Part shown: positions 11,227-14,337 of the stretch, piece by piece
Layout of the letters: each line of letters begins with the position of its first letter
Numbering within the stretch: the stretch's first letter is position 1
NCBI GenBank assembly: GCA_017560945.1
Contig: JAFZDY010000004.1
Location: 1-48,148, forward strand
From: Bacteroidaceae bacterium
GTDB lineage: Bacteria > Bacteroidota > Bacteroidia > Bacteroidales > Bacteroidaceae
Direction of reading: 5' to 3'
Length of the DNA: 48,148 nt
Translations under genes and position numbers: made by a program
Notes under the pieces: model-generated
What the model was told of the DNA's origin: nothing
The model's input: only the letters and a program-made list of their open reading frames with translations
The model's database searches: none

Positions 11227-11304
11227 GTTCAAGTACAAAGTACCATTTACGAAGTACATTCATGGTGTCGGTAAATGGTATGTAGTATTCGCTAAATTAT
11301 AAAT

Positions 11305-11331: not shown

Positions 11332-12084
11332 ATGTTAGAAATAAAAGATTTACATGCCAGCATCAATGGCAAAGAGATATTGAAGGGCATCAACCTAACC
11401 ATCCGCGATGGCGAAGTGCATGCCTTGATGGGGCAGAATGGTGCAGGTAAGAGTACACTGAGCAATGTGCTCGTGGGACATCCTGCCTACGAAGTGACTA
11501 AGGGAAGCATCATCTTCAATGGTAAGGATTTATTGGAAATGAGTCCTGAAGACCGTGCACACGAAGGAATCTTCCTCTCATTCCAGCATCCTGTGGAGAT
11601 TCCTGGTGTAAGCATGGTGAACTTTATGCGAGCAGCAGTGAACGAACAGCGTAAATATAAAGGTCAACCCGCCCTTACTGCCAGTGAGTTCTTGAAACTC
11701 ATGCGCGAAAAACGTGCCATCGTGGAGTTGGATGGCAAGTTGGCTAACCGTAGTGTAAACGAAGGCTTTAGCGGTGGTGAGAAGAAACGCAACGAAATCT
11801 TCCAGATGGCTATGTTGGAACCGACTTTCGCCATTCTTGACGAAACAGACTCAGGCCTCGATGTGGATGCCCTCCGCATTGTAGCTGAAGGATTCAACAA
11901 ACTGCGTACTCCACAAACCAGTGCTATGGTCATCACTCACTACCAACGTTTGTTGGATTACTTGAAGCCCGACATTGTGCACGTTCTGCTTAACGGCCGC
12001 ATAGTCAAGACTGGTGGTCCTGACTTGGCCCAAAAGATAGAATCCCGCGGCTTCGATTGGATAAAGCAAGAGGTAAACGGGTAA
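11332..12084 (+). CDS. sufC: Fe-S cluster assembly ATPase SufC
   Basis: 250-aa ABC-type ATPase that drives conformational change in the SufBCD scaffold. Walker A is GQNGAGKST at 34-42, the Q-loop SFQHP at 83-87, the ABC signature FSGGE at 146-150, and Walker B AILDE at 167-171 followed by TDSGLD. The SufC-specific GEKKRNEI stretch is present. It lies between sufB and a GxxExxY cassette that separates it from its partner sufD. Confidence 0.97.
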   Translation: MLEIKDLHASINGKEILKGINLTIRDGEVHALMGQNGAGKSTLSNVLVGHPAYEVTKGSIIFNGKDLLEMSPEDRAHEGIFLSFQHPVEIPGVSMVNFMRAAVNEQRKYKGQPALTASEFLKLMREKRAIVELDGKLANRSVNEGFSGGEKKRNEIFQMAMLEPTFAILDETDSGLDVDALRIVAEGFNKLRTPQTSAMVITHYQRLLDYLKPDIVHVLLNGRIVKTGGPDLAQKIESRGFDWIKQEVNG

Positions 12085-12102: not shown

Positions 12103-12133
12103 TTAGGCGCGGATTACGCGGATTACACGGATT
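12103..12133 (+). repeat. Left inverted end of the GxxExxY cassette
   Basis: 31 bp containing GGATTACGC, GGATTACAC and GGATTA in tandem (9-bp period). Its reverse complement matches 12501-12531 at 30 of 31 positions. Confidence 0.92.
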
Positions 12134-12136
12134 AAT

Positions 12137-12520
12137 ATGTTGCATGAAGAATTGACGAGTGATATACTGAAAGCTTTTTACGAAGTGCATAAAGTATTGG
12201 GATTTGGCTTCTTGGAACAAGTTTATCAGAATGCCCTTTATAAAGAGTTGTCTGACAATCGAATGAAAGTAGAATGCCAAAAAGAAATTTTGGTGCACTA
12301 CAAAGGTGAATGTGTTGGTAGATATGTTGCTGATATGGTCGTCAATAATTCTGTTATTTTAGAGTTAAAAGCTGTTCAGACTTTGAAGGTTGAACATGAA
12401 TGGCAACTGATTAATTATTTAAAAGCTACAGGAATTGAAGTGGGATTGTTGTTAAATTTTGGTCATAGTGCAGAATTTAAAAGGAAAGTTTTCACAAGTA
12501 AATCCGTGAAATCCGCGTAA
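12137..12520 (+). CDS. GxxExxY protein (PD-(D/E)XK nuclease-fold)
   Basis: 127-aa member of the GxxExxY family (PDDEXK_3 type). The name motif is intact: G24-x-x-E27-x-x-Y30. The nuclease-fold core is complete, with E27 on helix 1, D66 in VADMVV and the E76-L-K78 dyad in ILELKAV, followed by the usual EWQLINYLKATG helix (88-99). Function of the family is not established; the conserved residues suggest an active metal-dependent nuclease. The last six residues and the stop codon (KSVKSA) are encoded by the right inverted end. The gene sits between sufC and sufD in the same orientation and is read here as an inserted passenger rather than a Suf component. Confidence 0.9.
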   Translation: MLHEELTSDILKAFYEVHKVLGFGFLEQVYQNALYKELSDNRMKVECQKEILVHYKGECVGRYVADMVVNNSVILELKAVQTLKVEHEWQLINYLKATGIEVGLLLNFGHSAEFKRKVFTSKSVKSA

Positions 12521-12531
12521 TCCGCGCCTAA
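12501..12531 (-). repeat. Right inverted end of the GxxExxY cassette
   Basis: Three tandem words of the type AATCCGYGW (9-bp period). It overlaps the 3' end of the ORF and provides its TAA stop at 12518-12520. One mismatch to the left end, at 12509. Confidence 0.92.
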
Positions 12532-12542
12532 AAGAATAATTT

Positions 12543-13883
12543 ATGAATTCAGAAAAACAATATATAGAACTCTTTGAACAGTGTGGAGAGATGATTGCCA
12601 AGCATAGTGCTTCGGCAATGAATACCCTCCGTGCCAAGGCGTTCGAGGACTTCCAACGATTGGGATTCCCCACTCGAAAGGACGAGGCATACAAGTACAC
12701 CGATGTCAGCAAATCATTTGCACCTGACTATGGGTTGAATCTCAATCGGTTGGATATACCCGTCAATCCTTACGATGCTTTCAAGTGTGATGTGCCCAAC
12801 ATGAGTACGTCACTCTACTTTATGGTGAACGATACGTTCTATGTAAAGGAAGAACAACGCCACTTGCCCGAAGGTGTAATTCTCTGTAGTTTGAAAGAAG
12901 CGGCAGAGAAATATTCTGAGATAGTATGCAGGCATTATGGGAAGTTGGCCGACACAAGTACGGATGGTGTGGTCGCTCTTAATACGATGTTGGCACAAGA
13001 TGGCTTATTCCTATATGTACCCAAGGGAAGTGTGGTGGACAAACCCATTCAATTGGTCAACATCCTGCGAGCAGATGTCAACTTTATGGTCAATCGTCGC
13101 GTACTTATCGTATTGGAAGATGGAGCTCAAGCCCGTTTGTTGATGTGCGACCATGCCATGGATAAGGTGGACTTCCTGGCAACACAAGTTGTAGAAGCAT
13201 TTGTGGGTACAGGAGCCACTCTTGACCTCTATGAATTGGAGGAGACCACTACGGCTACTCACCGTTTCAGCCATCTGTATGTACATCAGGAGGCAGATAG
13301 CAACGTCTTGCTTGGAGGCATTACCCTTCATAACGGATTGACTCGCAATACCACACACGTCACCCTTGCTGGACGTGGTGCACACATCGACCTCAGCGGT
13401 ATGGTCATTGCCGACAAGCATCAGCACGTGGATAACCATACATTCATTGATCATCGTGTCAGTGATTGTACCAGTAGCGAACTCTTCAAGTATGTTCTCG
13501 ACGATAGTGCCACGGGAGCCTTTGCTGGTAAAGTGCTCGTTCGCGAAGGGGCGCAACGTACTGCATCCGAACAGACCAACCGCAACCTTTGTGTGACTCG
13601 CGAGGCACGTATGTACACCCAACCCCAATTGGAAATCTATGCCGATGATGTAAAGTGTAGCCATGGAGCCACCGTGGGGCAACTTGACGAGAATGCCCTC
13701 TTCTACATGCGCCAGCGTGGTATCAGTGAGCGCGAAGCCCGCTTGCTCCTTATGTTTGCCTTTGTGGGTGATGTGGTGGATCGTATTCGTCTCGATGCCC
13801 TTCGCGACCGCCTGCACCTACTTGTCGAGAAACGTTTTCGTGGCGAGATGGGTAAGTGTCAAGGATGCACCATGTGTAAGTGA
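12543..13883 (+). CDS. sufD: Fe-S cluster assembly protein SufD
   Basis: 446-aa SufB paralogue that completes the SufBC2D scaffold. It has an N-terminal helical region (PTRKDEAYKYTDV), a beta-helix core (GAHIDLSGMVIADKHQHVDNHT; RTASEQTNRNLC) and the C-terminal block CSHGATVGQLDENALFYMRQRG with the SufC-binding helices. The last ten residues form a C-x2-C-x2-C cluster (C439, C442, C445) that the E. coli protein lacks. The ATG at 12543 is 11 bp after the inserted GxxExxY cassette. A hairpin 80 bp after the stop probably ends the sufBCD transcript. Confidence 0.95.
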   Translation: MNSEKQYIELFEQCGEMIAKHSASAMNTLRAKAFEDFQRLGFPTRKDEAYKYTDVSKSFAPDYGLNLNRLDIPVNPYDAFKCDVPNMSTSLYFMVNDTFYVKEEQRHLPEGVILCSLKEAAEKYSEIVCRHYGKLADTSTDGVVALNTMLAQDGLFLYVPKGSVVDKPIQLVNILRADVNFMVNRRVLIVLEDGAQARLLMCDHAMDKVDFLATQVVEAFVGTGATLDLYELEETTTATHRFSHLYVHQEADSNVLLGGITLHNGLTRNTTHVTLAGRGAHIDLSGMVIADKHQHVDNHTFIDHRVSDCTSSELFKYVLDDSATGAFAGKVLVREGAQRTASEQTNRNLCVTREARMYTQPQLEIYADDVKCSHGATVGQLDENALFYMRQRGISEREARLLLMFAFVGDVVDRIRLDALRDRLHLLVEKRFRGEMGKCQGCTMCK

Positions 13884-14206: not shown

Positions 14207-14337
14207 GTTTAAGAGATACTCGAGTACCAGCTAAGTGGTACTCGAGTACCAACGTGACAGTACTACAGTACTTCTTATGTAGTACTGCAGTATCAGTTAA
14301 GTGGGATTCTGGTACTTATTAAGAGTATTCTGATGAC
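14195..14337. repeat. 22-bp tandem repeat array with palindromic cores
   Basis: Units begin at 14195, 14217, 14239, 14261, 14283 and 14305, an exact 22-bp period, with a partial unit at about 14326. The consensus is roughly TACTCGAGTACC followed by nnYTAAGTGG. The first half is a palindrome (TACTCGAGTA, TACTACAGTA, TACTGCAGTA) whose centre varies between units. It lies immediately after the 32-bp repeat and directly before simple repeats. No ORF or recognised protein site. Confidence 0.75.

Follow-up and report, generated by a model that had tools for sequence, protein, structure and literature searches.

The window analysed here is a 48,148-nucleotide stretch of a Bacteroidaceae genome. Within it, a small cassette is located between sufC (11332..12084, plus strand; TIGR01978), which ends 18 bp before it, and sufD (12543..13883, plus strand; TIGR01981), which begins 11 bp after it, and is co-directional with the suf operon. 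The left inverted end (12103..12133, plus strand) consists of TTAGGC and three inward-pointing CGGAT words at 9-bp spacing, an arrangement referred to below as type A. The right end (12501..12531, minus strand), also type A, is complementary to the left at 30 of 31 positions, exactly as given in a preliminary description of the locus. That description also reported a single open reading frame within the cassette, which is what we find: a GxxExxY gene of 127 aa (12137..12520, plus strand), assigned to TIGR04256 / PF13366 (PDDEXK_3) through profile matches. It starts after an AAT, 3 bp past the left end, and its last six residues and stop (KSVKSA-stop) are encoded by the right end. Searching the window with a 24-mer of the end at up to 3 mismatches returned exactly two matches, the two ends themselves, and 100 shuffles of the window contained no match at all. 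These shuffles, and the control positions at the wide loci described below, rule out a chance origin of the inverted repeat. Separately, an imperfect 17-bp inverted repeat was seen between sufB and sufC (11234-11287), and downstream of sufD (14210-14253) a 22-bp unit is present in tandem and inverted copies with TACTCGAGTACC palindromes, by eye unrelated to the cassette iterons.

The protein matches PF13366 with an E value of 9.2e-41 (139.3 bits, cut-off 22) and TIGR04256 with 3.5e-40 (137 bits, curated cut-off 35). PDDEXK_3 is its sole Pfam match above cut-off, leaving it without a known transposase domain, and no transposase family was found among the Pfam matches of 44 family members at E values up to 1. 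The PD-(D/E)XK core recognized earlier is intact, with E27, D66, E76 and K78 invariant in alignments of 19 and 44 rows. Q90 is invariant in both as well, and Y94 (Q90-xxx-Y94) is invariant across the 19 rows, with conservation of at least 90% across the 44. We take the conserved E, D, ExK and QxxxY of GxxExxY proteins to be the Cas4/RecB motif set. Weak similarity to Pfam Cas_Cas4 is found in 28 of the 44 members (best 3.3e-4). The PADLOC Cas4 profile matched the window protein in part (E 0.013), and the best of three proteins tested reached 3.3e-5, again as a partial rather than a full-profile match. Among solved structures, none is related to the GxxExxY protein by sequence.

Only one copy of the gene was found in its own genome (G000, a 2.35-Mb assembly, 81.8% complete), and gene-positive genomes hold 1 to 8 GxxExxY family members. 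With one relative as tblastn query, the gene was detected in 8 of 72,556 plasmid records and in none of 50,697 phage records, which speaks against a phage or plasmid gene. An IMG/VR scan yielded 600 pattern stretches with no relative among them. The best-matching plasmid record, NZ_OY725952, resembles a chromosomal piece because both thrA and radA are present on it. In the literature searched, which covered few subscription papers and no preprints, we found neither a published role for GxxExxY nor a link between it and repeats. In the excerpts available, the gene table of an algal virus genome contains a GxxExxY protein (PMC12085832), and the name also occurs in print as a pipeline's domain match beside a CRISPR reverse transcriptase.

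A wide scan with one genome per species gave at least 581 confirmed stretches, and the best 80 were taken as the wide loci. These span Bacteroidota, Proteobacteria, Acidobacteria, Planctomycetota, Verrucomicrobia, Chloroflexota, Cyanobacteria, Cloacimonadota and others, and include two archaeal loci, one with inverted ends (L153) and one without (L103). Within 200-bp flanks, an inverted repeat score of at least 26 was reached at 64 of the 80 wide loci (best 80 of at least 581) versus 3 of 242 controls, and a score of at least 34 at 48 of the same best 80 versus 0 of 242, all control positions having been taken from the 80 wide loci at the same spacing as the gene flanks. Including the genus and family loci (30 of 39), GxxExxY genes elsewhere do carry flanking inverted repeats, at 94 of 119 loci; these 119 are not all independent, because L080 and L097 have the same sequence and a few more are near-copies. 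Inverted ends were below threshold at 16 of the 80 wide loci and 9 of the 39 genus and family loci, and at some loci passing the threshold the arms are not iteron-like. Both observations count against the explanation favoured below.

The word shared across the family is an inward-pointing CRCNRAK heptamer. Its orientation at the 94 loci with ends is inward at 76, outward at 7 and tied at 2, with too few words at 9. For the wide loci the corresponding figures are 54 inward, 5 outward, 2 tied and 3 with too few to classify, and for the genus and family loci 22 inward, 2 outward and 6 with too few. Arms in the wide set are mostly made of CRCNRAG heptamers, often with AC in front (e.g. ACCACAGAG) and with a spacing of mostly 8 to 11 bp. 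The 9-bp iterons of the preliminary description therefore fit the ends in the window but not the family as a whole. The basic arrangement is a low-copy chromosomal GxxExxY gene between inverted arrays of a short word.

Such arrays also occur genome-wide, many of them as short gene-less inverted pairs. In the own assembly a 23-mer of the end gave 33 matches with up to 3 mismatches (0 for the reversed-pattern control), and the outer 22 bp of the type A end gave 62 with up to 2 mismatches, the cassette's included. With one gene to 62 end matches in this genome, the gene-less form is the common one. The same 22-bp search returned 77 matches in G002, 164 in G004, 134 in G007, 36 in G008, 108 in G009, 16 in G003, 23 in G005, 1 in G001 and 0 in G006 and G010-G014. 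Eight of the 15 same-genus genomes have 16-164 type A matches, and the reversed control gave 0 in all 15. The 27 loci fetched from the own genome contain 21 convergent pairs, 19 of which span 46-133 bp, and 19 single ends. No Rfam match at gathering scores fell on any unit at the five loci searched, which speaks against a known RNA family there.

Several further repeats were encountered during these searches. An Rfam match to BTnc049, a Bacteroides sRNA (L262:14096-14204, minus strand), shares its stretch with gene-less units without overlapping any of them. In G007 (L198 / L178, G007:C140) the type A gene is next to a tandem series of partial left-end copies that carry a CCATGCGGCAC tail, and the same tail is found at solo or filled ends in G002 and G004. 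On contigs C6, C11, C13, C14 and C15 of G075, paired words such as CGGATCGCACCGATTGCACGGAT are placed at a near-constant start-to-start distance of about 265-270 bp and possibly form a longer unit family; the reversed control also gave 3 matches there.

Co-occurrence of gene and repeat, put forward earlier as a check, is evident across genomes. In a census of 301 family genomes that used one word type only, at least 3 repeat matches were present in 44 of 111 gene-positive genomes (E <= 0.001; 107 over the curated cut-off) versus 8 of 190 gene-negative ones. The odds ratio is 14.9, and within-genus permutation gave p<=2e-4, also when the own genus was left out. A second genus, searched with a second pattern, gave at least 3 matches in 18 of 44 gene-positive versus 4 of 55 gene-negative genomes (Fisher 7.5e-5), gene fragments being scored positive. 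This genus is probably Bacteroides, because L227, which has the same radA locus (see below), is B. finegoldii.

Gene-negative genomes with at least 3 matches are, in the family, G004 (123 matches; 78% completeness), G268 (19), G173 (16), G030 (10), G085 (7), G177 (5), G220 (5) and G249 (4). The second genus adds G339 (32) and G320 (13), both single-contig assemblies, as well as G338 (8) and G374 (6). Because repeats are found without a detected gene, the favoured explanation needs gene loss after spread. Two further results count against it: 67 of the 111 gene-positive genomes have fewer than 3 matches of the one pattern, and in genus g13 the gene is present in 10 of 21 genomes, none of which has 3 repeat matches.

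Between lineages, changes in the word go along with changes in the protein. A protein tree was built from 80 of the 119 loci, namely those with a repeat score of at least 26 and at least 3 classifiable words, at least 80% of them of one kind. On this tree the T or G that ends the word changes 2 times, compared with a mean of 14.9 when shuffled, and 0 of 500 shuffles reached so few. Two other positions in the word require 12 and 18 changes on the same tree. The C-terminal loop between INFN and GIKR is the best separator of word type. The covariation could in part be shared descent, since outside the window's family T-type words turned up only in other Bacteroidota, and a majority of the forks in the protein tree (44 of 74) are open.

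Closer to the window, gene and ends are of matching type within the sufC-sufD gap: both are type A in G000, and both are type B in G002, G009 and G001. The type B genes and L177 form a 98%-supported group, with the G000 gene outside. Ends can also be compared with dispersed copies within type B. In G002 the type B gene has CATCCGC ends, and the dispersed type B matches, counted with the few cassette ends, are CATYCGC in 54 of 60 cases and CAGACGC in 6 of 60. In G009 the ends read AGACGC (CAGACGC on one side), and on the same way of counting 20 of 21 dispersed type B matches are CAGACGC and 0 are CATCCGC, G009 being undercounted because the type B search pattern favours CATCYGC.

Not every relative has the gene between sufC and sufD, and gaps without it were found. 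Among the other 12 same-genus genomes read, the gap holds a nuclease gene with other ends in 3, a gene-less palindrome in 1, a different insert in 3 and none of these in 5. At L052, L053 and L054 (G007, G005 and G003) there is another palindromic insert, CCCTCCCTGTA ... TACAGGGAGGGG, within a sufC-sufD intergenic length of 136-141 bp, so small inserts of several kinds have come to occupy this gap. Of 30 loci fetched at radA in the second genus, 17 are filled and 13 are without the gene. The stop codon of radA is within ~10 bp of the gene unit, and homology to gene-free relatives ends at the unit ends. The filled sites have GAG ends in 12 cases, GAT ends in 4 and mixed ends in 1. The GAG-ended twelve are separate from the other five genes, four GAT-ended and one mixed, which join GAT-type genes of other loci (SH-aLRT 96), and end type changes once on the gene tree. 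At two loci, relatives with different gene types have different end types as well. The gene at the radA site is under strong purifying selection (dN 0.038, dS 1.15 for G256 versus G309). A third comparison, at the L062 locus, shows a type A gene in G002 and G007, a solo end only in G009, G000, G004 and G008, nothing of the kind in G005, G013, G014, G001 and G012, and other or unclear sequence in G003, G006, G010 and G011.

Gene-less units are likewise filled or empty within homologous flanks. The comparison of their interiors covered G339 and G314, both of the second genus, rather than the window's genome. G339, a genome with no detected gene, has six gene-less copies that are alike through most of their interior (72-94% over up to 163 bp) and have TTCACC/GGTGAA borders and different flanks; a seventh copy is located inside a perfect duplication. 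Interiors are shared likewise by 5 of 8 gene-less copies in G314 (73-89%). At 47 gene-less loci, tblastn found no remnant of the nuclease gene in the units, two weak matches being outside them. The gene-less units are what multiplied.

Target-site duplication was assessed on 28 units, two of which carry the gene and which include at least one related pair. Exact direct repeats numbered 0 for 4-mers (shuffled mean 0.15), 1 for 3-mers (shuffled mean 0.68) and 7 for 2-mers (shuffled mean 3.38, largest of 300 shuffles 9), counts with which a duplication of 2 bp would be compatible. Flank pairs were clearly inverted in 4 of the 28, versus 1.09 expected (p 0.02; summed score p 0.06), and in G320 and G381 a small palindrome forms one empty site. 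This flank symmetry and the palindromic empty site provide a suggestive lead towards palindromic targets.

We consider it probable, at roughly 60%, that the cassette belongs, as the gene-bearing unit, to a two-part repeat system resembling REPIN/RAYT, with a Cas4-like PD-(D/E)XK nuclease as its enzyme. The preliminary description had tied the protein to its repeated words much as RAYTs are tied to REP sequences, and that tie is well supported by the family-wide ends, the covariation and the co-occurrence. That the GxxExxY protein itself mobilises the repeats is our inference. The nuclease would bind the heptamers in both arms of a palindromic unit, the bound form probably being an extruded hairpin or cruciform, and its cutting at the heptamers would lead to the unit being copied to new AT-rich intergenic places. 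It would act mainly in trans on gene-less units, as is thought for RAYTs on REPINs, and rarely on the unit of its own gene. The window would then show a type A unit in a sufC-sufD gap that in relatives carries a type B unit, a gene-less palindrome, another insert or none.

A passenger or watchdog role is an unlikely alternative, and the strongest of those considered. Here another enzyme, or replication slippage at hairpins, would move the repeats, and GxxExxY would bind the words so as to process or restrain the repeats, or to regulate transcription of its own gene. Genomes with repeats and without the gene are in line with such a role, the inverted arrays on both sides of the gene could serve as operator sites, and to our knowledge no transposition chemistry has been established for the GxxExxY nuclease family. 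However, neither covariation with the word nor within-genus co-occurrence with repeat load would be expected of a passenger.

Slightly less probable again is an IS-like autonomous element, with the nuclease as transposase, a cassette that jumps, and gene-less units as its decayed MITE offspring. Inverted ends around one ORF and gene-less units with common ends are what such an element would leave, and the type A gene is found at suf in G000 and elsewhere in G002 and G007. Near-identical cassette pairs with different flanks were sought and none was found: L157/L161 and L077/L078 are ~80% identical over some 400 bp around the gene only, a possible relocation, but their flanks are without word-type ends, and no fetched locus pair exceeds 90% identity restricted to the gene unit. 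The gene is held at 1 to 8 copies per gene-positive genome, one here, against tens of ends. It has been retained at radA, where dN is low and dS exceeds 1, and it is rare on plasmids (8/72,556) and absent from the phage records (0/50,697). The 28 units show no clear target-site duplication, and tblastn found in the units at the 47 gene-less loci no remnant of the nuclease gene. An ordinary IS is set aside because the gene is not amplified and there is no clear target-site duplication. The self-moving cassette of the preliminary description is not supported, given the same copy numbers, selection and replicon counts, and it fails the check set out in that description, the ends being mostly without the gene (62 matches, one gene, in the own genome).

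Very improbable is an RNA-level role, raised earlier as an mRNA insulator, in which the 31-bp duplex in the suf transcript would serve in processing or insulation, in the manner of 23S rRNA intervening sequences, and be kept for its effect on sufC-sufD expression: a strong duplex is indeed predicted (cassette RNA fold -130.6 kcal/mol, z -6.8 versus shuffles), the unit is within the operon and co-directional, and neighbours within 400 bp at the wide loci (best 80 of at least 581) are co-directional in 56 of 71 upstream and 55 of 70 downstream cases, but one gene-less unit directly follows a terminator-like hairpin, and as a main role it is set aside because the content of the gap varies among the 12 other same-genus genomes and the same gene and ends are present at other places, which it leaves without explanation.

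Were the GxxExxY protein tied to its own word, hundreds of anonymous GxxExxY genes (at least 581 confirmed stretches) would gain a testable function. The tie would also explain the CACAGAG, CGCAAAG and CGGATTAC repeats dispersed in genomes, and the covariation yields direct specificity predictions for these proteins. The GxxExxY system would then stand as an enzymatically unrelated counterpart of REPIN/RAYT. On whether it amounts to an undescribed class of mobile DNA our judgement is evenly balanced. In such a class a stand-alone Cas4-like PD-(D/E)XK nuclease would read heptamer arrays and spread palindromic units in trans, possibly into pre-existing palindromes, with no need of a DDE, HUH, tyrosine or serine recombinase, and the class would span bacteria and at least one archaeal lineage.

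Homing endonucleases of the I-Ssp6803I type are small PD-(D/E)XK nucleases tied to their own spread, as GxxExxY may be. However, the GxxExxY words would be the element's own ends, present in many copies, and not an intron target site. Cas4 and RecB-type nucleases are similar in the weak Cas_Cas4 matches and in the conserved E, D, ExK and QxxxY, yet the GxxExxY proteins are about 115-127 aa in length, stand alone and are linked to dispersed iterons; no CRISPR gene was present at the two annotated GxxExxY gene loci viewed. MITEs mobilised by a parental IS, for example MITECca01 of Cardinium, are, in the sections of the source available, likewise short gene-less inverted-repeat units that have ends in common with a gene-bearing unit and homologous interiors (PMC9769881). 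The GxxExxY gene-bearing unit differs from a parental IS in lacking a DDE or HUH transposase and in having hardly multiplied, its ends are repeated words, and clear target-site duplication is missing.

The closest known system is REPIN/RAYT, which combines REP doublets with a REP-associated tyrosine transposase (PMC3116915, available sections). As described there, a low-copy chromosomal gene has the repeat on its flanks, many gene-less inverted pairs are dispersed (here 21 pairs and 19 single ends), and repeat type goes with gene type, which is also the case here. GxxExxY is nevertheless not a RAYT, because its enzyme belongs to an unrelated family, a PD-(D/E)XK nuclease where RAYT is an HUH tyrosine transposase (Y1). 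The unit is different as well, a heptamer array in place of a single REP palindrome, and the GxxExxY system extends through many phyla, with one archaeal locus carrying ends (L153).
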